Positions 1-51,469 of a stretch of DNA of 64,000 bases are shown here, in pieces. The DNA is from Oidiodendron maius Zn (lineage: Eukaryota > Ascomycota > Leotiomycetes > Myxotrichaceae). The position numbers and the translations under genes are program-made. The stretch lies in the NCBI GenBank assembly GCA_000827325.1, contig KN832877.1:1488001-1552000 (forward strand), written 5' to 3'. The notes under the pieces were generated by a model. That model saw nothing but the letters and a program-made list of their open reading frames with translations, searched no databases and was not told where the DNA came from. Numbering within the stretch: position 1 is the first letter of the stretch; every line of letters starts with the position of its first letter.

Positions 1-1713
1 CAAATTCTTCTTGCGTAGTATGAAAGGCATATTTCCGCCAAGCAAAATGAACACCTCATCCCCCTTGGCTACGTCAACCGGGCCCAAGCCTAGTAAACCG
101 GACTGGGTAATGAAGAAGCGATGATTGATCATCTTTGACTGAAAGTACGTCTGGCGCTGGTTGCCAGATCGGATCTCGCGGAGGCAAGCTGCAACTTCAC
201 TGGGAGCAATTCGCCGGCGGATGACACGATTCTCGGATCCGTCATAGTCTTCAACATAATCCAATGCCAAGACTCGCATGAGAGCTTCACTATAACTTCC
301 TGATCCAAGTGGGTAGTTCTCATCTGCAGGCACTGTCTCCTCCATGAGTTGCCTCCATTGTTTGTCAGGGAAGTGCATAAATATAGAGCTTTCTGGTGAT
401 GCCTTGAAAGCCTCTCGATCTTCGCAGGCGTAGCCTACCACTGCAATAGTGTCGACCTTGACGCCTGCTAAAACGAGTGTGTTAGCGGGGAAAGATATAG
501 CATTGCTATCACCAAATTCCGTCCTCCTACCACCACTAACATTGTGAAGATCCCAACAAGACCATTTAGAAATTGAAAGCTCTCGAATCCTGTGGCGATC
601 ATTTTTTGCTCTCCAGTCCGGTACCCATGATGGGAGATTGGGATTTCGGTCGTATTCCCGAGCGCGCAGTAATAGATCGAGGACTCTCGTTTGTCGAATT
701 AACTTCAAGGCCGTTTGGATAAATATCTCGGAACTAGACGCAGAGTAGTCGGCACTCAAACCAGCAGCAATTGTTAGACTAGAAGAGCTCGTAGCGCCAA
801 GAGCAAGCAACCCAAAGACTTTGTCTCTCGGGTCCGTAGAGTTTCTGTCTTGAAACTCTTGGAATATGCGATTCATATCCGTGCCGCTATCTGAGACCAT
901 CTCTCTACGTGTATCTTCAAGCTCCCTAATCTTGTTGTTGAATTCCTTAAGACTTGAGACTGCTCGGTTGCAGCACATCTTATAATGGTGCCTCCGAAAA
1001 TTCGTGGATGCTTGCACGAAAGTGGCCCACGGCAGTGTCAATGACCCGCACATTGCAACACAATATGGCGGCAGTATTGCTTCTTGAACTGTCCATATCC
1101 TATGCCACCATGTGAGTTTCATCAATGGGGCCAGGGACCCTTCTTCCCGGTTGCCAGGGCGTGTATAATGCTCATCACGAGCAAGGGACTCTATAAGAGA
1201 AAATGCTTTCTTAGCATCTGGTTCATATATGGCATTTGGGCTATAGTCTGGCTCGGTAGTAGTATCCCCAAGCCAAATCAGACAACAGCTTGCCATCGTG
1301 AATATTGATGCCATTAAATCAACTTGAGAAGCCTTCTCATTGAGGTCGCGCTGATTGATGCAAATGGCATCAGCCCAAATCAGTCGATCTCTATTTATCT
1401 CTATGGCTCTATGAAGTGCAGCCTCTAAGTTTGATGTGATATAGTGGAGATTATCATTGACATGTATCGGCCTAGCATCCGTCACATCCCCCCAGCAGTA
1501 TGAGAGAGCATGGTATTCATGACTGGCACAAGCGTCAAGATTGACGACTATAAGACGACATCTGATTGGTCTAGTGTCTACTTGGGAAGATTCGTCCCCT
1601 GGATCGAAACGAATGAGTCTCGTTTGGCGTGTTGGATCATCAAGTGGAGGGTATTGAAAACTAGAGATTGGGGGGTTTAGTGCCTCAGGGCTATGTTGCT
1701 GACTGGCAGCCAT
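1..1713 (-). CDS. HET (heterokaryon incompatibility) domain protein, 3' end off the window
   Basis: One uninterrupted frame runs leftwards from ATG at 1713 to the window edge (about 571 codons), so the stop is not seen. Near residues 65-80 it reads YHALSYCWGD, then LIWADAICINQ about 50 residues later and CCLIWLGD after that, the classic HET-domain blocks. DPRDKVFGLLALGA follows around residue 275 (the usual DxRDxVFGLLGL block), then a WVPDW motif. The last visible part (GLLGLGP, then VFILLGGNMPFILR) is the C-terminal region typical of large fungal HET proteins, so little is missing. HET proteins of this kind trigger growth arrest or cell death on nonself recognition between fungal strains; which partner this one senses cannot be told. 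It has no introns. Family assignment is firm, biological role inferred. Confidence 0.93.
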   Translation of the reverse strand, partial: MAASQQHSPEALNPPISSFQYPPLDDPTRQTRLIRFDPGDESSQVDTRPIRCRLIVVNLDACASHEYHALSYCWGDVTDARPIHVNDNLHYITSNLEAALHRAIEINRDRLIWADAICINQRDLNEKASQVDLMASIFTMASCCLIWLGDTTTEPDYSPNAIYEPDAKKAFSLIESLARDEHYTRPGNREEGSLAPLMKLTWWHRIWTVQEAILPPYCVAMCGSLTLPWATFVQASTNFRRHHYKMCCNRAVSSLKEFNNKIRELEDTRREMVSDSGTDMNRIFQEFQDRNSTDPRDKVFGLLALGATSSSSLTIAAGLSADYSASSSEIFIQTALKLIRQTRVLDLLLRAREYDRNPNLPSWVPDWRAKNDRHRIRELSISKWSCWDLHNVSGGRRTEFGDSNAISFPANTLVLAGVKVDTIAVVGYACEDREAFKASPESSIFMHFPDKQWRQLMEETVPADENYPLGSGSYSEALMRVLALDYVEDYDGSENRVIRRRIAPSEVAACLREIRSGNQRQTYFQSKMINHRFFITQSGLLGLGPVDVAKGDEVFILLGGNMPFILRKKNL

Positions 1714-2574
1714 TGGAGCGGGCTTGAGATGCCCGTCGATATTCACTGGAGCCGGTCAGTCTGAACAGGGCCGAAAAGTGTCGCCTCATTAAGGAAGTCT
1801 CTGCATATCTAAGAGAGGACATTGCACCGAAAGTGTAAGTGGCCACATACCGTGCTTTGGTTCGGTGTGGGGGAACTGCCTCGCATCCCTTACACCACGT
1901 CCTTGGCGCAGAATGTTCATTGGGAATGTTAGAGGCATCGTCCTAAAAGCGCAAGCTCCTTGGTAATGTGTTGATTTGGAAGGACAGTCACGAACTTCAG
2001 GCGAAGGCTGCGCCAAGCATTCCGAGTGCGGGGCATCGTGAGGCTGAAGTGGGGTTTATCATCCCGCGTGTCAGAAAGATCTAAAGGATGGACCAATTTC
2101 GGAGACGCAAAATATTCCCTAGTTATAACATAGCTGCTTCTATCATCGCTAAATCCGAGAGACACTACAGATATCGTGACTACAATAGCGCGTAGATCAT
2201 GACTACGCTTCTTAGGGATCGACATTTACTTTTCGTATTGCGCTGACACTGTTACGCGGATTCACATGTGGTTCCAGACCCAGCGGTTGTTACTCTGCGC
2301 TTAGATTATCGTCAACTGGCCGATCGCTTCCATTAACCCATCTGTCCGTTAATCAGGCTTTTGCCCTTACAACCCATGCCAGTGGGTTGGGAATTACAAG
2401 CAAGATTCCCATACCTAACTCCTAGCTTCTGCATAGCCTAGAGGGGTGGCAGGAACCAGCAGTAGGTCCACTACAACGAGTCATTTCAGGGGCAAGTTTG
2501 TTGCTATATTAACTCTCACAGACCTCTTGACACAAGAATGAATATCTTTTCTTGGATGAAAGCTTTACTTGATG
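1714..2574. other. intergenic, upstream of the HET gene and downstream of the AAA gene
   Basis: It presumably carries the HET promoter next to 1713. Short open frames exist (for example 98 codons on the minus strand, 1929-2225) but have no recognisable motif or splice continuation. I see no RNA gene or repeat. Confidence 0.5.
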
Positions 2575-5500
2575 CTAATTCACTGTCGGGTCGAACTCAT
2601 CGTCCCGAATTGCTTGCACCTTCGCCAGGGTTGATTCATTAAGTCCTCGGGTGCGAAGCAGATATTCTTTGAACAATCCCGACATTTTGACGACCTGCTG
2701 CAAATGTTTCCTTTGCAGTTCAATCTTTCCGGTCTTAGTCAGGCGTTTGCCATCCCTTGCATCCCACTCGGCGAGTGCAACCATAGTGTTAAACGCATTG
2801 CGTATCTCTCGGCCGTTCCAACCGAGCGATTTGATATCCTGGTGGCCATACGCATACTCGAGTATTCCCACCCCAAGCACTATATCTTTGCGCTCTTCAT
2901 TCAGCTTGCGGAAAGAAGTTTCCCATATTTGCTCTCGTTCGGCGTCGTTGAAACTTGGGAAATGCAAGACAATGTGAACCCGTGATAAGATCGCCTCATC
3001 GAAAGACCCCACCCGATTCGAAGTCAGGAATAATAGGCCTTGGTAATATTCTAAAGCGCGGAGAAAGACTGACACCAGCGTATTTCTCTCAAAATCGCCT
3101 TGCTGGCGAGATTCGAGGTAGACATCAGCCTCATCGAAGAGTAAAACTGCCTCCCATGTCGTTCCAAGACGCAACCAGTCATTAAGATTGTCCTCTACAG
3201 CAGTGGCTGTCGTTCCTAGATCACCACAGGTGATAGCAATGAGGGGCCGATGTGTGATTTCAGCCACACATTCGGCAGTGGATGTTTTGCCCACCCCAGG
3301 TCTACCATGGAGGAGAATGATCTGTCCATCACCCTTATTCTGGATAAAGTCTGCACTCCATCGTCCTCGTACGCTAGCCTCGTCTTTGGTGTCAGTCGAA
3401 ATGACACCTTTCTGGATGGCGTGTGTACTCGATAATGCCTGGATAAGTCTCTTTGCTTCATCAGATAATACAAGATCATCCATTATATTCTCATTGAATT
3501 CGCACGGTGTAATCTTTTCTACATCTAACAGCTCTAGATAACAATATTAGTAGGTTTATATAAATAGGCTGAGGATTCGTAAGAGAAGGCGCCAAGCAGA
3601 GCATAGATTTATCGGCTATGTTGAGAGCCGTGGAGATTCTGGCTCTAACAACCTTACAAGAGCATCATATTTTGAAACAGGCAGCTAGGCTATAGATTTG
3701 ATGGAGCATTGACTCACCCCATTTCCTCTCTTTCAATACATATCCATACACCTGACGTGGACAAAGCATATAAAGCTCATCCGACAGCGCGACTGATTGC
3801 TTTGGGTCTACTATTCTTGTATTTGACAAGGTGTCGGACCTCCGAGAGAAGTGATAGGCTGAATCTAATCTTTTCCTATAGGATGAGACATTTAGTGACT
3901 TTCGTGATCCAGGGGAGAATGAATATGAAGTATCTATGTATCGCGGTTCATCATATCGATATCGATGTCGTCGTCGCACGGGTACGTCGGATGAGGAAGA
4001 ATTGCTATCATCAGACTGGTCTCCAATCTCTTCGGGGGGCAGATGAAATCTGGGAATAAGTTCAGGACTGTATTCGCTATAATACGTCTCCGAATCAAGA
4101 ATTATGCGACTGTGTACCATTCGGCGAGGAGAGGACATGGTAAGCCCATGATACTGACAATGGGTCCGCTTCGTGTAAGAACAATATCTTTTCCCTCTTT
4201 CAATCATTCGATCTCTGACAGATTCATCATCCCAGAATTTTGCTGGAAATGCTGGAAGAGATTTGATGTCCTTTTCCCCCTCGAACGGCCAAATAGTTAT
4301 CTTCCGTATACGGCGGCCTAGATACGTCCCATCGTATTCCATGTGGCTGACGGTTATGACAACTGCTCTCAACTCATCCTTAAACTCTAAGTTCTTCTTC
4401 TTTTTCAACCTTCCTGGCTTAACAGAGGGCTTTTTCGTATTTTTATCGTAGTCCCATAACCCCTTGAGAGTGTGAGATTCTACAACACACGCCACCAGTA
4501 CGTTATCGTCCCAGGTGTAGACGAGTTCGCCTGGCTTGAACAAACGCCAACTCCATGCGTATGTACACGTGCGTGGTTCTTTCCGAAGACGCTCGTCTTC
4601 CTGACGGAGAGCCTTTGCGTAGCGATTCTCTACATACTCATACAGCATATCAATATGCAAACCTGGATCGGGAACCTCGTCTTCAAGATCGGAGCTTTCG
4701 GAGCTTTTAGACTCCGTACTCTTTGTATGCGCTCTATCTTGCAAATTGGCATCTCCATTGTCATGTTGAATTCGTTTCTCTTTTAAATCACTCCGTAGCT
4801 GGTCTCGGCGAGCCAAAATTTCGTCGCGGTAGTGGAACAGGACACAAAATGGTTCAGGAACAACTAGCTCATCACCCTCCCATACAAGATCATGGTAATG
4901 TTCGGCAACACTCCTGATGGCTTCGAGAATAATCTCAGATCCAATAGTTAACAGGACACCTGCCGCAACTCTGACCTGAATTGAATCGCCAGGCTTGACG
5001 GGTTCTGCAGTGGGTACTTTATCGTCATCCATCAGCCGGCGAAAGCCACCAAGAATATTATCTTTCTTTCCCCTAGCTGCGTCGTACATGGTGGTTATCT
5101 CAAAGATAGGTGCAGTGAGTAGTCGAGATGCTGGAACAACGTCAATCTCGGTTGTTTGCTCGTACATGCGGTCCAGTATGGCCTCTGGCTTCCGAGAGCT
5201 CGAATAGCGAGAGGATTCCCGGACACGATAAATCTCAGCTCTGTATAAGACTTGCAATTTATCCTGTGGGGCTTTCTTTTCGTTTTGCTGCCTACCTCGG
5301 GGAGCTCTATTTTCGTTTTGTATCTCGTCATCACTCTTGTTATCATCATGATTCTCTCGGACCTGAGATACAATATCTTCTTGTCCTCCAAAGCCTAAGA
5401 CTTCGGCCACCGCTTTTCCGACGAATTCCTCCCAAAGACCTACAAGTTTCCCAAAGTCAATGCCATCTGGATTAAACTTGAAGTCAGCCTTTCGTGGAGT

Positions 5501-5860
5501 CGGATGCTCTTTTTCCCAGCTTGCCTTCTGTTTCGTGAATTCCAACATTTGCCGTCCATATTGCGCTTCCCAAAACAGTCGTTCTGCTGGCTCCATCGTG
5601 TCCCACATATCACGGAGCCGATCTAACAATTCTTTGCCATCCGGAAGATCAATATCTTGTGATAGCTGCGGTGCCTTTTCTTTTGCAAATTGGTCAAAGG
5701 GCGGTAAGGGAAGAAGTGGAGGTCGCGTAGATATGGTATAAGAAGCGTCACTCCCTCTTCGTGAGCTCGTAGTGTCTTTCTCATTGTTACTGTCGGCTCC
5801 AGTCAAGATCTGGGATTCTTGTTCCAGCGGCCTCCCGGGTTCGTCGTCTATTTGGCTCAT
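2575..5860 (-). CDS. AAA+ ATPase with N-terminal DUF7025-like domain, two exons
   Basis: Exon 1 is 5860-3718 and exon 2 is 3533-2575. The 184-nt intron starts GTGAGT and ends CTAG, and the join restores frame (Trp-Glu-Leu-Leu-Asp), giving 1033 residues. The first 160 residues are charged and low in complexity. Residues about 380-680 resemble the DUF7025 region found before AAA domains in fungi: YTWDDNVLV, then ITIWPFEGEK, then RGKRYCSYTK with a following QYHG. The C-terminal AAA module has Walker A GRPGVGKT (791-798), Walker B LLFDEAD (845-851) and a sensor-1 Asn in LFLTSN (about 887). Proteins of this architecture are common in fungi but their substrates are unknown. It is divergent to the STAND-like gene at 6455 across 594 bp. 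Confidence 0.9.
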
Positions 5861-6454
5861 GTCGATTGAATCTAAGCTAAGCAGTCCTAATCATCTATCG
5901 CAAATGATCTGATGTATTTGAGAGAGTGCCTCAACGGTAAAAAGCTCAAATCATGGGTGCATTCGGGAGCCTGAAACTTGGGTTGCTGGCAAAATTAACG
6001 ACTAGCCACCAGCCACTATTTATTAGAATGGACCGAACACATCACGAGGCTAGCCCAATATGTACATTTCGTCGGCTGAATGTTGGTGAAACGGGACACA
6101 TTGCAGACGCCTCTTTTGCACAGCCTCACCAATTTCCCGCTCAGGATTTCGTTTGTTCGTATGCGAGTGGGTTGCGTACGGACACACTTCGACAGAGTCA
6201 CGTTATAAATAGTGGTTTCCTTAAGTGCTGCATAGCAAATCCTCTGGCTCTGATATCCTGATCTTTGTACGATATCGACGGGTTGTCAGGGATGGACTCC
6301 GACACTTCTTGGAGCCTTGCGAATCGTACACCTCCAGCGACTTCGGTAAACAGTGAACAAAATGTACAGGAAAAATATAAATGGATAGGCTTTTTTGCCG
6401 ATGACCAGGCTTCTAGGTAAGATGAGCTCGTAATAAACACCTCTTCAATGATTT
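5861..6454. promoter_or_regulatory. shared divergent upstream region of AAA and STAND-like genes
   Basis: This 594-bp interval lies between two start codons facing away from each other, so both promoters must lie here. I see no clear TATA box or known operator, and no other gene. Confidence 0.55.
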
Positions 6455-8251
6455 ATGATTAATCACACTACTAGCGTCGAAGAGCAGGCTCTTAATATAG
6501 AAGGCGACCAACTCTTAGCCGCAATCCGCAAGGCCTTCCCATCAGATTCGAAGGACACATGGACATATGAGGACTTTGAGACTGCGGTCAAACAAAGCCG
6601 AACTGACTGGGAAAATAAGGACCGACTCGCAGGAGGCAAAATTCAGAAACATTTCCATAACATTATGAGAAAGTTTGACGGACACTCAAATCTGTTTCAG
6701 CTACTTCCTCAAGGTGACAAATACACGTCTTTGTTGACTGGAGCGGCGGCGATTCTTGTCAAAGCCTCTGTTAACCATGTCAAGACTTCGGAGGAATTAA
6801 GTAATGCTTTAGAGGCTATCAACGAAGCTGCAGCCAGATGCAATGTTGAATCCGACCTTATTAAAAGCAAGACCATGCAACAGACTATCTCTAAGCTATA
6901 TGTTGCTATTTTCCTGTTCTTGAGCGATGCCATACTCTGGTACAGGTCCACAACTCGAGCGAAGGTACTTAACAGTCTTCAGAATAGTTTCTCGGAGAAG
7001 TTTAAACGCCCTCTTGCTAGTATTACGAGCCTATCACTTGATGCAAGACGTGTCGCGGATATGGGTACCGGAGCAGAGGTTCGTGTTGTTAGAATGGAGC
7101 TCGAGGAACTTCAATCCGAAGTTAATGATGCCCGTGCCGGGTTGACAGGAGAAATACGGCGCCTGGCGGAAATTACTCATGTACAACATGAGGAGAACCT
7201 CGAACAGCATGAGAGGACGCGACAAATTCTTAGTTTGGGTCAGGAAGAGATTGCTGGGAAATTGTTGTCGCAACTGGCGAGCTCCTGGAACGTAACGACA
7301 CTCCCCGAGCCAAGTGCGCCGACTCTACTTCTCACTTCTCTGCATCAGCCAACAGAATTGGATTCCGTTCCTGAACAATCTGCACAGCTTCAGCGTCTTA
7401 CAACGGCTAATAGACCTCCACGTCTACAAGTCCCACAGCCTGACATAACAAAAGCCTCGGAACAGAGGCTAACAAATCAGTCGATCAGAGATATCGTTTC
7501 TAAAAGGCTAGAAAGATACGACATATCCCACGAGCTTGGCTCTGCATTTCCTACCTTTTCGATATTCGAGGTGCAAAGTCAATCAATCAGCACACCGCTT
7601 AGTACTTGGTTGTCAAAAGATTCGTCAGATATCCTATACCTGGAATACTCCAGCATGGACAAGATGAGAAACCCGCTCACTTCTGCGGTCAATGAAATAA
7701 TCCGTTCGGCATATAAAAACAGTATTCCCATAATTGCTTTCTTTGAGAATGAGTCTCTCAATCTCTCAAATAAAGCAGACACTTTCGGCAAGGATGGCAT
7801 GACAGTGATGATACTCTCACTCGTGTATCAAATCTTCTCCCAACTTCCTCCACTTGACTTCCAGGAAGAATCATTCAACAAAACCATGTGTGAATCCGAT
7901 AGCTGGGAAGACAATATTTCTTTGCTCGAAAAAGCATTTGCAGTCCTCCCACCACTCCTCATCTGCATTCTTGATGGATTCCAAACATTCACTCGTGCCG
8001 ACGCATCGAAAGTAAAGGACTTTGTTCGTGTTCTTCGTAACGCTACCGATCAGAAAACTCGAACGTTGAAGACTCTTCTCACAAGTCGTTTTAGGTTATC
8101 TAAGCTTGTGTCAATGCTTTCATCCAGTGAAGTAAGAATTGTCAATGGATATGGAGGGACCCACTCGACGAAAAAGACTGCAGGGACGCCAGTGGCGTTA
8201 TTATCGCGGAACGTTCAAGGTTTAAGGAGGGGCCAAATGTCTGATTCATAA
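6455..8251 (+). CDS. STAND-like fungal protein: DUF7708-like N terminus, degenerate NTPase region without P-loop
   Basis: Single exon, 598 residues, from ATG at 6455. Residues about 75-200 (KIQKHFHNIMRKFDGHS, then GDKYTSLLTGAAAILVKAS) resemble the helical domain, DUF7708-like, that precedes NACHT/STAND modules in many fungal proteins. A coiled-coil-like stretch rich in Glu follows (about 215-275). Residues about 370-560 follow the layout of a fungal STAND NTPase: a WLSKDSSDILYLEY strand where the nucleotide loop would be, PIIAFFEN, and LLICILDGFQTF in the place of Walker B. There is no GxxxxGKS/T Walker A anywhere, so it probably does not hydrolyse nucleotide in the usual way. The C terminus ends soon after LLTSRFRL, with no WD40, ankyrin or TPR repeats. 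It may be a truncated or decoy relative. The domain calls are by resemblance only. Confidence 0.7.
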   Translation: MINHTTSVEEQALNIEGDQLLAAIRKAFPSDSKDTWTYEDFETAVKQSRTDWENKDRLAGGKIQKHFHNIMRKFDGHSNLFQLLPQGDKYTSLLTGAAAILVKASVNHVKTSEELSNALEAINEAAARCNVESDLIKSKTMQQTISKLYVAIFLFLSDAILWYRSTTRAKVLNSLQNSFSEKFKRPLASITSLSLDARRVADMGTGAEVRVVRMELEELQSEVNDARAGLTGEIRRLAEITHVQHEENLEQHERTRQILSLGQEEIAGKLLSQLASSWNVTTLPEPSAPTLLLTSLHQPTELDSVPEQSAQLQRLTTANRPPRLQVPQPDITKASEQRLTNQSIRDIVSKRLERYDISHELGSAFPTFSIFEVQSQSISTPLSTWLSKDSSDILYLEYSSMDKMRNPLTSAVNEIIRSAYKNSIPIIAFFENESLNLSNKADTFGKDGMTVMILSLVYQIFSQLPPLDFQEESFNKTMCESDSWEDNISLLEKAFAVLPPLLICILDGFQTFTRADASKVKDFVRVLRNATDQKTRTLKTLLTSRFRLSKLVSMLSSSEVRIVNGYGGTHSTKKTAGTPVALLSRNVQGLRRGQMSDS

Positions 8252-45932: not shown

Positions 45933-47735
45933 TTATGTAAGAACAATTGCTTTGACAGTCATTCTACGCGACGTCCCATCACCGACATCTTCCTCAAGGC
46001 AAAACCCACGGCGCAAGACCCACGAAATCTTCCTCTCGTCATGGTCTGACTTCTGTTCGTCGTCCACGTTAGGTTCTTCATGGATATTCTTATCGAACTT
46101 ATCTCCTATAACGGGATGGCAAAGTTTTATTGATCCACCTACAGCTTCAAGGTATGACCACAATTCTATTGTCGACTTTATGATCGCAGCTCTCGTTGGA
46201 GACCAAAGCGGAATTGATATTCTCGTTCCAGTCAGGGGTTGTAAAAAGGCCTCTAATCTTTGGATTAAATTGGCTTGCAGCTCTGAGTTCTCGATAACGA
46301 TTTCTTTGAACTGGCCTCTGTGCCAAGTTCGCAATTGAATCTCTCTCAAGACCTGCCGACCCATCTTCCACCCTAATGATTCATTAGTCACAAGTTAATA
46401 AGTTTTCAAGAACACTGACTGGTATCTCCAAAGTTGGCCACCGCTGACATCATTATTCGCATAGGTTTCATATGCGGAAGTTCGTATAAATTTATTTCGT
46501 TGCTAAGAATATCCAGTACAAACCAGTATATGAGACTCATATGAACTCGAGAAAAGGGAATATTTTCCAATTCTGAGGAGATAGTCAGCTGTTTATCTGG
46601 AGGCGTTCTTAGAAGCTGCCTTAATGATGCAGTAATTGGCTTGTGGCTTGTCGAAGGGGCATTCGTGTAATCATTGAGGCGAAACCACTCGCTTCCTTCA
46701 GTAAGCTGGTACCCAACATCAATCGCCTCCCATTCTTCCAGTGGGTTCTTGATATAGGTGTTTTTGCCTTCACGCGAAAGTTGCCTTGCCCAGCATACTT
46801 CTCGGTCGTAATTGTAGATTGATTGATGAATCTCTTCAATAAGCGACACGATGATACTTTGCTCAAATCCTTGGAACTTCTCATCTCGTGTCAGAGGAAA
46901 CTGCGACAACACTGAGCCATCTTCAAGTTCGTATGCATGTTCGTCCAGACTAGGGATAGGGTTTTCAATCGCCAAAGGCTTATTATACCCGTACGCCGTT
47001 GGTATCGCTTCCAGCCCCTCTGATATCGCTTCCGGCCCAACGTTCATGCCGTTATTGGAGGCTTCGATAATATATTTGACATGCTTAATCTCGCGGCTAA
47101 CCCCATCAATATATTGATCACCAAGTGTATAAAGGCATTTCGTGCAGACGAAGTGGAAGTCTTTGGTCCCCATTTTGATAGAGAATAGTATGGACCGCCT
47201 ACGTTTCGTCGATATGATACATGATAAATGATACCATGTCTGGCATGTTCCAATCTCGCATTGCAACATTTGAGTATCGCATATTCCTCCAGACTTCCGC
47301 GTTATTTGGCGACAATTTCCGCAAGCCCCTGACGGTATCATTATGTTCGGCTGTTCAGGGTCTCCCAACAATACAGGCAGCGATTTTTCCGACGTGACAG
47401 CAGGAGTCATATCGGGGAGATTTAGCGACATGGTCGTAGATGAAGTCTCCCTGAAAGATGGAGGGGACCTAGAGGAACTTTTAGCTTTCGTTATGGTGAA
47501 ATTCAATGGTGTCCACAAACCTAAGAGGGTCATAATCAGAGTTCTCGTTCTTTCGTTTTGGCTCCTTTTTGGTCATCTCATTGGGCTTTCTGGGTAAACA
47601 TTTGCGACTTGACTTCAAGCAAGTATTACAAGTAGCCTGGTTTTCGTCAGAGAACTCGCATCGTCTCTTCCTCTCAAAACAGTCTTTGCATGCACGTCGT
47701 TTTACCCCTTTTTGGGAATAATCATTAAGGGTCAT
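45933..47735 (-). CDS. Zn2Cys6 plus PHD-finger-like nuclear regulator, three exons, 570 residues
   Basis: Exons 47735-47521, 47477-46420 and 46372-45933 join in phase. The introns are 43 and 47 nt. Residues about 15-45 are a Zn2Cys6 binuclear cluster: ACKDCFERKRRCEF, then CNTCLKSSRKC. Exon 2 holds a PHD-like Cys4-His-Cys3 unit: ACGNCRQ, MLQCEIGTCQTWYHLSC, FVCTKC. The remaining 370 residues are mostly helical with no named domain (REVCWARQLSREGKN, then IELWSYLEAVGG). An upstream in-frame ATG at 47894 would add 53 residues; I prefer 47735 because it leads directly into the zinc cluster. It should bind DNA and perhaps histone tails. It is divergent to the Hsp70-Zn2Cys6 gene (443 bp between starts), so the two are likely co-regulated. 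Confidence 0.85.
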
Positions 47736-48178
47736 TGCAGTTGCTACGGAGAGAGATAATATACAAGATTTTGACAAGAAAGGAGAGAGGAGAGGGGGGG
47801 GGGGCGCGGCGGGTAAAATTTTCCGCATACGCAAAGCTGTGCTTATTTTGTGTAACCACACTGTTTCAGCCACCCCTCTAGCTTCAAATTTCATTTGTTA
47901 TTATGCAGACATATCCTATCATGTGCAGAGTTGTAGGCAGGGTTACTGGTGATTTGACTGCTCATTGGCCCGGTGAGAGATCCGGTGAGAGAAATTGGAA
48001 TGCCTTGCGGAAAGCCCGCGCGGATTTAGTTGCTGACAGCTTTTTCCTGCTTTTTGTCTGCCCTTAAAACACAGCGAGACCACGAGCCTCGCGGATTTTG
48101 ATCACGGTCATCCTCCTAAAATATACCACTTGGACTATTTTGCCCGCCATACTTATCTAAGCTTAATTCTGTCTCTCT
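47736..48178. promoter_or_regulatory. shared divergent promoter of the two zinc-cluster genes
   Basis: A 443-bp interval between opposed starts. It contains a G/C run (about 47790-47812). Both products carry Zn2Cys6 clusters, so auto-regulation through this interval is possible, but no CGG-spacer-CCG pair stood out. Confidence 0.5.
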
Positions 48179-51100
48179 ATGATGCTAAGGAAGGGCTTGG
48201 TCATTGGTATTGATCTTGGCACTAGTGCCTCAACCGCGAGTTATTGTCTAACTCTCGATTCTCTTGACTCTCAGGGAAAGCTCAACAGAAAGAAAGCCAG
48301 CGAAGTACATGACGTGAAGGATTGGCCTGCGTCTAATATCCACAATGCCATTGGCAATCCTTGTCTGCCGACAGATCTAATTTACCGCAAAGATCTCAGA
48401 ACGATACTATACTGGGGGTTTGAGGCCCAGCAGTATCTCGACTCCACTTTCCCAGAGCCCTCCCGTGATGAGGTTTTCATCGTCGAAAATATTAAGCTAT
48501 TGCTTCCCGGGCCAAACGCTGTGGCAACTTCATCAACTGCATCGGAAAGGTACCGGTCAAAACGCGAAACACTGATTAACACGCTCTCGAAGCAACCTGA
48601 GGATGTCTTCGAGGACTTTATGAGCCTCCAGCTCAACCATGTTATTGGTAGTGCAATGGGTAAATACTACAGTGGACTCAATAATCTCCAGATCGAACTA
48701 GTCCTGGCGTTCCCCTCCGGCTGGGAAGACATTGTTCATACAAATGTCGCTCGGATTGGAAATAGAGCAATGAAAAAGGCACTCTCAGATCACAAACTTG
48801 AGAATGTAATCTTTGGACTGGAACACGTATATACAGTTTCTGAGACTATCTGTGGGGTTAAGGAATGGCTTCGGGAGACTGTTTCTGAATTTTCCGCTGT
48901 TGAGGATTCGGATTCTCTGCGAACTAATCTAGATGAGCTCCAGGCAAGTGTCCTATAGATATCAAGAGCGATATGCGCTGACTTTATGTTCTAGGATGGA
49001 GATTGCTTTTTGCCTGTTGACATAGGTGGAGGGACTGGATGCTTGACACCTTTGAAGCTTATTTCAAAGCGGCCCTTGGCCGTAGAACAGCTTGATAGAA
49101 CGCAGTGTACTTGTTCTATTCCCGAATGCCCGCTATTTTCTGACTATTCTTACAGCATTAGAAGTATCCGGAGAAGCGGTAGAAGCTGAATTTGAGAGGT
49201 GGTTGCGTCCACAAATCATAAAGACATACTACCCAGGGGATATCCCTCGACTCGTAAACCGGATCTGTCGAATGTTCAAAGAGGAAAAGAAGAGGTGCGG
49301 CTTGACTTCGGCTCCAGGCTCCACGTGGAGCTTTGAAGTGACTAAATTGAAAGTAAATCTGAGAAGGGGATGGGAAAAGGGCTGCATGAGGATCAAACGG
49401 TGAGTTATAAAACCTCTTAATCGAGAAGTCCTAATAGTTATACCTACCTAGCGAGGATCTCGATAAACAATTTGATCCTGCGATTAAAGTTCTAGAGGAA
49501 GAGATCAGGAAAATTCTAGTTAGGTTTCCTTCAATAAAGGTAATAAGATGGTCTACCACCTGAAAAACATGTACTAATGTCTCTTAAGGCAATAATTTTC
49601 TTAGGACAGTTCGGTGGCAGCTCAGCCTATCTAAAGAAGAAGATGCAACGGAGCCCTATTGCCGAGCAAGTGAAGATTAGACATAGTCAATCTGGCAAGT
49701 TAGATGTTGTGAAAGGTGCAATTTCCGAAAGACTGACTCTTGATGAACGTTTTGTGCGTCAGTATAAGACTTCCAAGAGTTACGGAACTCTTGTCACGTT
49801 AATCTATAGCGGTGCAGTGAAGAGGCTGTTTCCCAACCCCCAACAACAAGGAGCTGTACCCTTCGAAGAATCAGATGATGGCCCTCGACTGAAGGTTATA
49901 GAGTGGGCAATCCCAAAAGTAAGCATTTCTATCCGGAATAAATAACAAATCGCTATCACTCTCGAGAACGATCTATTGTCGTATGTTATATTGCGCTGAC
50001 ACGATTTTGTGGCAGGGAACCATGATACAGAATAGTAGAAGTGGTAGCATTGGTAAGGATGGCTGTAGATATCACACATGGCCAGTCAGCGAAAAAGATA
50101 TTGGATTCGAAGATATTATTGTGGTCTCAGACGAATGCACCCCAAAACCACAGCTCGATAAAACTTCATACACCTTGTGGACAACAGCCCATGAAAGAGA
50201 TAACCTTCATATCAATGGCGAGAGAAGTAATCATATTGTTCCCCGTTAATACGTCTGTAATCTAACCAAAACCGACAGTTCGAGTCCAGCAGATTCCTTT
50301 CGGCTGGGATCTCAGTATGTCTCAGAAAGTAGACTCAAGGGGAAATGTCCTTGGGCCATACTGTGAAGCCGATTTGGGCTGTATCATGAGTTCTCGAGGC
50401 AAACGTCCCCCACAAGATAGACAGCGAGTGCTTTACTATGACCTTATCTGGGATATTACGGAAATGCAAGTTAAGATTTACGTCCAGGCACAGTTCCCAA
50501 ACCTTGTAGGCCCGTTGACTTCACAGCTTGCCATAGAAAAAGTATTTGATCAAGACGAGAAAACCGCGGCAACAGAATCAAGATCAACGGCGCTCGAGAA
50601 AGATATCCAACTGACGCACAATGGACTCCTTGAGGAACATGAAGGACCACTCAGAGATAAGGACATAAGTGATGAGACAAATCGACCTCTAAACGGAATG
50701 CTTGGAGCCGGTGAGTTTCAACAGATCGGCAATGCCCTGGTCACAGAACCTCCGCGAGATGAAGGGATGCCCCAGCAGGCCATGGAACTGGATCAAGAAC
50801 ACCCCGCAGGACACAATGAGGTGTTCTCAACCCAGCAACAAGTACTCGCTCCATTTGGATCTCGGCCAACCTTTACGGCAGCTAATCAACAGCAATCCAA
50901 TGAGCATTTTCCAGTGATTGGTGTAGCGGGGGGCTCTCAGCAGCTGCCGGGTGGTCAAACTGAGGAAAATCTGAACCAGGTAAGTCTCTCTAGATCCTAC
51001 CACGATGTGCTAATCTGTGAAACTAACTCACGGAGCAGGAGATACGGCACGGTGACAAGGTAGTCAAGGATAGAAGACGCCGCAATGGTGCGTAGGCTCA

Positions 51101-51469
51101 GGTGCGCAAAGTAAAATATACCTACTGGAGATTCTAACCGAGGCAGGCTGTTTTACATGCAAAGATCGAAAGAAAAAGTGCGACTGCATATATGCCTACG
51201 ACCAAGTTACTCGCACGACCAAGTGTACAGCTTGCAGGAAGCACAATATTCGCTGCGACCTGGAGCAGCCTCCGGAATGGCTTGCAAACCCAATGCAAAA
51301 GCAGGCAGAGAAACTGGAGCGCAAGAGGCTAGTAAGGTTGGGGAAGAGGAAGTCGACGGCCGAATCCGATTCGTCGGATGTTGTCAGACACAGGTCGTTT
51401 ACTCTCCCGTCGGAAGAGGACATCAATTCGCGTCCCGCCGTCTACCCCTCGATAGAAAAGCCAGTATAA
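48179..51469 (+). CDS. Hsp70-like (HSPA12-type) ATPase fused to a C-terminal Zn2Cys6 cluster, nine exons, 940 residues
   Basis: Exons: 48179-48943, 48995-49106, 49156-49399, 49452-49539, 49589-49918, 50016-50226, 50279-50979, 51039-51087 and 51147-51469. All phases agree and the total is exactly 941 codons. Intron 1 is GC-AG (donor CAG|GCAAGT). The ATPase part shows phosphate-1 VIGIDLGTSAST (about 8-19), LVLAFPSGWEDI, phosphate-2 VDIGGGTGCLT (about 261-271), FERWLRPQI and IIFLGQFGGSSAYL (adenosine region, about 405-418). The Hsp70 fold ends near residue 660 (VKIYVQAQF). A Gln/Glu/Pro-rich linker follows (to about 817), then RRRRNGCFTCKDRKKKC and CTACRKHNIRC, with cysteines at 835, 838, 845, 859, 862 and 869, a complete Zn2Cys6 cluster, and a basic tail (LERKRLVRLGKRKS). 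The cluster lies at the C terminus instead of the usual N terminus. A nuclear, DNA-binding chaperone-like switch is inferred. Confidence 0.88.

Follow-up and report, generated by a model that had tools for sequence, protein, structure and literature searches.

The window analysed here is the whole 64,000-nucleotide stretch of Oidiodendron maius Zn contig KN832877.1. At 48179-51469 on its plus strand lies a gene predicted to encode an Hsp70-like module followed by a C-terminal Zn2Cys6-type cluster, and a second gene runs divergently from a shared promoter region (Table 1). The nine exons of the plus-strand gene join into 2823 nt of coding sequence for a protein of 940 residues, with no internal stop. 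Its eight introns are 49-97 nt long and all end in AG; seven of them start with GT, and intron 1, which opens with GCAAGT, is of the GC-AG type. In addition, a CTRAY motif starts 13-21 nt before the end of each of the eight introns, with a second copy at 29 in one of them (counts without a chance control).

Table 1. Exons of the Hsp70-zinc cluster gene, the intron ahead of the cluster and repeats in the divergent promoter. Positions are those of the window.
Feature	Position	Strand	Remarks
CGG[AT]GAGAGA copies (n = 3)	47747-47757, 47971-47981, 47983-47993		Divergent promoter; last two in tandem
Tandem CGGTGAGAGA repeat	47971-47993	+	Candidate CGG half-sites
Exon 1	48179-48943	+	Start codon; first phosphate motif IDLGTS; followed by the GC-AG intron
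Exon 2	48995-49106	+	Second phosphate motif DIGGGTGC
Exon 3	49156-49399	+	
Exon 4	49452-49539	+	
Exon 5	49589-49918	+	Adenosine-loop motif AIIFLGQFGGSSAYL
Exon 6	50016-50226	+	
Exon 7	50279-50979	+	End of the conserved Hsp70-like region (~residue 690); bulk of the poorly conserved linker
Exon 8	51039-51087	+	Basic stretch KDRRRRN ahead of the cluster
Phase-1 intron	51088-51146	+	Splits the Gly codon immediately ahead of Cys1
Exon 9	51147-51469	+	Zn2Cys6 cluster (residues 835-870), PxW motif, basic GKRK tail, stop codon

The gene model was fixed before the protein search, its length of 940 residues being already known from the first-pass annotation of this DNA. Protein database search returned a sequence, P0001, that is identical to the model over 940 of 940 residues (100% identity), and the spliced model together with this identity bears out the coordinates, motifs, nine exons and length given by that annotation. 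The P0001 cluster (source lgn) comprises six member sequences and four contigs, the longest of which is 3033 nt. As the unspliced gene spans 3291 nt, the P0001 contig must be spliced, and from the contig and gene lengths we infer that it is an RNA assembly. A retrocopy as the origin of the match was considered and rejected, since no second copy of the gene was found in the genome searched (45.9 Mb, 58 contigs). A single mRNA therefore covers both the Hsp70-like half and the zinc cluster, as had been supposed from the reading frame.

The divergent gene starts at 47735 on the minus strand, ~440 bp upstream of 48179. Its first reading frame (46409-47735, minus strand) contains a Zn2Cys6/PHD-like stretch, matching zf-PHD-like at an E-value of 8e-5 and Zn_clus at 0.016, and its next reading frame gives a weak PHD match, all of these matches being below the Pfam cut-offs. 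No paralogue of this neighbour was found in the genome at an E-value under 0.03. When up to two mismatches were allowed, a genome-wide search found one occurrence of the tandem repeat from the promoter between the two genes; having been picked after it was seen, it is a lead rather than a test. Elsewhere in the window, two reading frames with HET (heterokaryon incompatibility) domains lie near the ends, at 1-1755 (minus strand) and 60368-62425 (plus strand). The reading frame at 6452-8248 (plus strand) has a DUF7708 domain and a sub-cut-off NPHP3_N match and is possibly NLR-like, and the segment at 2578-5890 (minus strand) encodes DUF7025 and, in the next minus-strand frame, AAA and fungal AAA lid domains.

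The Hsp70-like first half and its active-site residues

Profile comparison revealed homology of residues 3-513 to five Hsp70-like proteins encoded elsewhere in this genome (L016, L017, L025, L027 and L046), with an E-value of 2.5e-31 over 450 columns (hhalign, 99.9%), the query profile being built from 21 family proteins. Restricting the comparison to residues 1-690 gave an E-value of 2.4e-31, against 0.21-0.86 for five column-shuffled controls and 0.51 for an unrelated transcription-factor alignment; these values refer to single comparisons rather than to a database search. The likeness to the five proteins consists of the ~450 aligned columns and the IDLGT, E (SET/TEP) and DxGGGT motifs, whereas the 940-residue protein adds the C-terminal cluster and has Cys for Asp and GQ for GG. 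When the genome was searched with the single protein sequence, the Hsp70-like loci L016 and L017 were found with E-values of 8.1e-7 and 2.4e-6, respectively, and the whole reading frames of both match PF00012 (Hsp70) above cut-off.

At E-values up to 1, PF00012 itself matched neither the 940-residue protein nor any of 14 family proteins. NCBIfam gave no match for P0001 or P0018, and a PDB sequence search with a family profile returned two chance-level matches, none of them to Hsp70. When a single canonical Hsp70 was the target, the E-value of the family profile was 0.052 over 26 columns, which is not significant, so that the link to Hsp70 runs via divergent proteins. Conservation continues beyond the nucleotide-binding part to about residue 690. 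Judged by sequence, residues 1 to ~690 constitute a divergent Hsp70-like module, made up of a nucleotide-binding-type domain and a further conserved region, which agrees with the Hsp70-like first half originally proposed. We call these divergent fungal Hsp70-like proteins HSPA12-like, and P0018 bears the UniRef name Heat shock 70 kDa protein 12B. In PMC2266713, homologues of HSPA12A/B are reported from vertebrates only among the genomes examined there, and the main text of a survey of Ascomycota Hsp70 proteins (PMC3879978) mentions neither HSPA12 nor zinc or DNA-binding.

Active-site residues were counted in a joint alignment of 17 of the 30 family proteins, the five HSPA12-like proteins and one canonical Hsp70. 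The Asp of the first phosphate motif is kept in 16 of the 17 family proteins (Gly in P0011), and both the Glu of EPxAAA and the first Asp of DxGGGT are kept in all 17. Of the 19 family proteins having the motif DxGGGTxD, 18 carry Cys in place of its second Asp and P0017 retains Asp, as do all five HSPA12-like proteins and the canonical Hsp70. At the adenosine loop, 15 of 16 family proteins have GQ and P0016 has GN, compared to GG in the canonical Hsp70 and in all four HSPA12-like proteins that extend to the loop. For the Lys of the K71 region of Hsp70, the joint alignment gave no convincing placement. In Hsp70, these residues have roles in nucleotide binding and hydrolysis. With the motif Asp and the adenosine-loop Gly replaced across the family, ATP hydrolysis may be weak or absent. 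These replacements, together with the non-significant match to canonical Hsp70, weaken the original proposal of an active ATPase.

The C-terminal zinc cluster and its probable source

Residues 835-870 have the spacing CxxC-x6-C-x14-CxxC-x6-C, with a 14-residue loop between Cys3 and Cys4, and this six-cysteine pattern occurred in none of 200,000 shuffles of residues 631-940. The Pfam family Zn_clus (PF00172) had no match in the 940-residue protein at E-values up to 1, and of 14 family proteins, four had a match at the same threshold, the best with 4e-4. Profile comparison with 14 Zn2Cys6 clusters encoded in the genome gave an E-value of 7.5e-12 (hhalign, 97.5%). Because six of these 14 had been found using this very protein, the comparison was repeated with the other eight, which were found by Pfam, and gave an E-value of 3.6e-9 (96.1%), compared to 0.027-0.62 for five shuffled controls. 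The profile of the eight Pfam-found clusters also reached P0008, P0004, P0001, P0009 and P0010 above the inclusion line, but not P0002 and P0003. Neither Fungal_trans, the middle homology domain of Zn2Cys6-MHD regulators (CeGAL), nor Fungal_trans_2 had a match in the 940-residue protein at E-values up to 1. Both halves of such a protein can thus escape a standard domain library; here they were identified through profile comparison and through relatives. The cysteine spacing and the match to the eight Pfam-found clusters establish, at the sequence level, that the C-terminal cluster is of the Zn2Cys6 type, as the first-pass annotation had it.

Yeast Ume6 resembles the 940-residue protein in its C-terminal Zn2Cys6 cluster and, to our knowledge, is without an Hsp70-like module. 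The C-terminal placement in Ume6 follows from the title of Anderson et al. 1995, as given among the references of PMC2447501. The earlier statement that such clusters normally sit at the N terminus holds as a general description, the zinc-cluster DNA-binding domain being "generally" N-terminal according to a passage of PMC10141177; given Ume6, however, a C-terminal placement is not unique.

Within the genome, the best match to the cluster is L018, with an E-value of 2.3e-4 over residues 833-913. L018 has a Zn_clus and a Fungal_trans_2 domain, and its cluster is likewise followed by a P-W motif and a basic stretch. Moreover, an AG that could serve as acceptor lies in the L018 gene just ahead of Cys1, at the same Gly codon that is split by the phase-1 intron described above. 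As the L018 reading frame has no Met ahead of the cluster, L018 presumably also has an intron just before Cys1. The shared P-W motif, basic stretch and AG position point to a gene fusion in which the opening coding segment of an L018-like gene was acquired, and a Fungal_trans_2-type transcription factor is thus the probable donor of the cluster. The two proteins differ in that the L018 cluster precedes the Fungal_trans_2 domain, whereas that of the 940-residue protein follows the Hsp70-like module and has the 14-residue Cys3-Cys4 loop.

Distribution of the fusion in Helotiales

In total, 30 family proteins were found, P0001 included; the family alignment comprises 21 of them, nine short pieces being left out, and the tree comprises 17 plus two outgroup rows. 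Nine of the 16 family proteins of at least 500 aa (P0001-P0005, P0008, P0009, P0014 and P0015) have all six cysteines, always at the C terminus, P0014 being a gene model that lacks the first part; the six-cysteine pattern is absent from the first 120 residues of all 30. The fusion is found in other genomes as well, in eight further proteins, and recurs in Helotiales. In P0006 and P0010, only Cys1 to Cys3 are present, a state that in P0010 is possibly a gene-model error. The gene models of P0007, P0011, P0016 and P0018 stop before the cluster region, and P0012, P0013 and P0017 (977-1030 aa) have no cluster. The CxxCKxRKKKC pattern is kept in P0001, P0002, P0003, P0004, P0008, P0009 and P0014; between Cys2 and Cys3 of P0005 and P0015, the RKKK run is replaced by MLLQTE and EKEGKL, respectively, with the six cysteines kept. 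As these two lack the basic run and three relatives lack the cluster, the family as a whole is not defined by DNA binding. The proteins come from 13 named species of fungi, of which the seven looked up all belong to Helotiales, in six families; the six-cysteine form occurs in five of these six and is absent from the two Coleophoma proteins (Dermateaceae).

Among six proteins chosen for their intact clusters, the mean identity at aligned positions is 54% for residues 1-690, 17% for the linker, 58% for the cluster and 37% for the tail; calculated over the longer sequence, the corresponding values are 53%, 13%, 52% and 32%. The rows with a cluster are not monophyletic in the tree and require five changes, a number as low being reached in 312 of 500 shuffles. 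The simplest reading would be one gain of the cluster and later losses, and we infer that some family members keep the cluster under selection, with decay or loss elsewhere. A search with residues 818-940 alone returned only the query among 81 candidates, which says nothing on absence, as it missed relatives known to have the cluster. An A-x-RGG motif was also observed at the C terminus of P0004, P0006, P0008, P0010, P0012, P0013, P0014 and P0017, but not of P0001; it is common to relatives with and without the cluster.

The UniRef names of P0002, P0004 and P0009 contain "Zn(2)-C6 fungal-type", so that the cluster is already machine-annotated in these three. Among the matches listed from titles and abstract openings of the openly licensed PMC literature, no description of an Hsp70-Zn2Cys6 fusion was found. 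Altogether, this is a real and recurrent domain combination that is apparently undescribed, in keeping with the earlier suggestion of a possibly undescribed class.

Possible functions of the fused protein

In yeast, Ssa1 represses Pdr3 and overproduced Ssz1 activates Pdr1, as reported in PMC3997011. These pairs resemble the present case in that a zinc-cluster transcription factor is the target of an Hsp70 protein; they are, however, separate proteins working in trans, whereas the 940-residue protein has both parts in one chain. The likeliest reading, which we hold tentatively, is that of a single-chain DNA-binding regulator in which the Hsp70-like module gates a zinc cluster acquired by gene fusion; its ATPase-switch part is weakened by the lost residues. 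Such a protein would be nuclear, and its Hsp70-like module would bind nucleotide and a ligand or client while turning ATP over slowly or not at all. The bound state of the module would then set whether or where the zinc cluster holds DNA, so that one chain would do what Ssa1 does to Pdr3 and Ssz1 to Pdr1. The yeast precedent (PMC3997011) supports this explanation, as do the full-length match on a contig shorter than the gene, the profile matches of both halves and the features shared with L018. In the six proteins with intact clusters, moreover, the cluster equals the Hsp70 part in conservation (58% versus 54%) across a linker of 17% identity. Against it stand the missing second Asp in 18 of 19 proteins and the E-value of 0.052 to canonical Hsp70, the three relatives without a cluster and the two without the RKKK run, as well as the 14-residue Cys3-Cys4 loop and the Zn_clus matches in only 4 of 14 family proteins, P0001 not among them.

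Other explanations divide the roles of the two halves differently. The cluster might be a fixed tether that brings an Hsp70-like chaperone or scaffold to chromatin, where the Hsp70 part would work on chromatin proteins and have no control over DNA binding. The 17% linker identity in six proteins does not suggest a tight allosteric connection, and the conserved region after the nucleotide-binding part is what would be expected of a binding module. However, the linker tells little about coupling when the protein is DNA-bound, and the motif changes make an active chaperone cycle less likely; overall we regard a tether as rather unlikely. A somewhat smaller chance is given to a cluster that, at least in part of the family, no longer reads DNA and has become a zinc-stabilised protein-binding or dimerisation module. 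This would suit P0005 and P0015, which keep six cysteines with MLLQTE and EKEGKL in place of the RKKK run, the three-cysteine state of P0006 and the clusterless P0012, P0013 and P0017. It fits poorly with the CxxCKxRKKKC pattern of P0001, P0002, P0003, P0004, P0008, P0009 and P0014, which is the basic pattern of transcription factors in the same genome, e.g., L018 and L021.

That the gene model wrongly joins two adjacent genes is hardly credible. Zn2Cys6 clusters are generally N-terminal (PMC10141177), a phase-1 intron lies just ahead of Cys1, and most of the other fusion proteins are probably gene predictions that could share one error. Nevertheless, P0001 matches all 940 residues on contigs of at most 3033 nt, and the order recurs in eight other proteins (the P0014 model lacking the first part), among them P0003 with 924 aa on a contig of 3073 nt. 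The spliced 940-residue match on contigs shorter than the gene led us to reject two joined genes.

Returning to the regulator with a gated cluster, a doubtful proposal is that an Hsp70-fold protein acts as a sequence-specific transcription regulator, its actin-fold module sensing nucleotide, ligand or unfolded client and making its own zinc cluster bind or release DNA. Such a sensor could be redox-responsive owing to the near-invariant Cys found in place of the second motif Asp. If this were true, proteostasis or the metabolite state would be read out directly at genes, with no separate partner involved. In a conserved single-chain version, the link from Hsp70 to zinc cluster would be directly testable with one purified protein, and it would show how a chaperone-fold sensor gets recruited into gene control.
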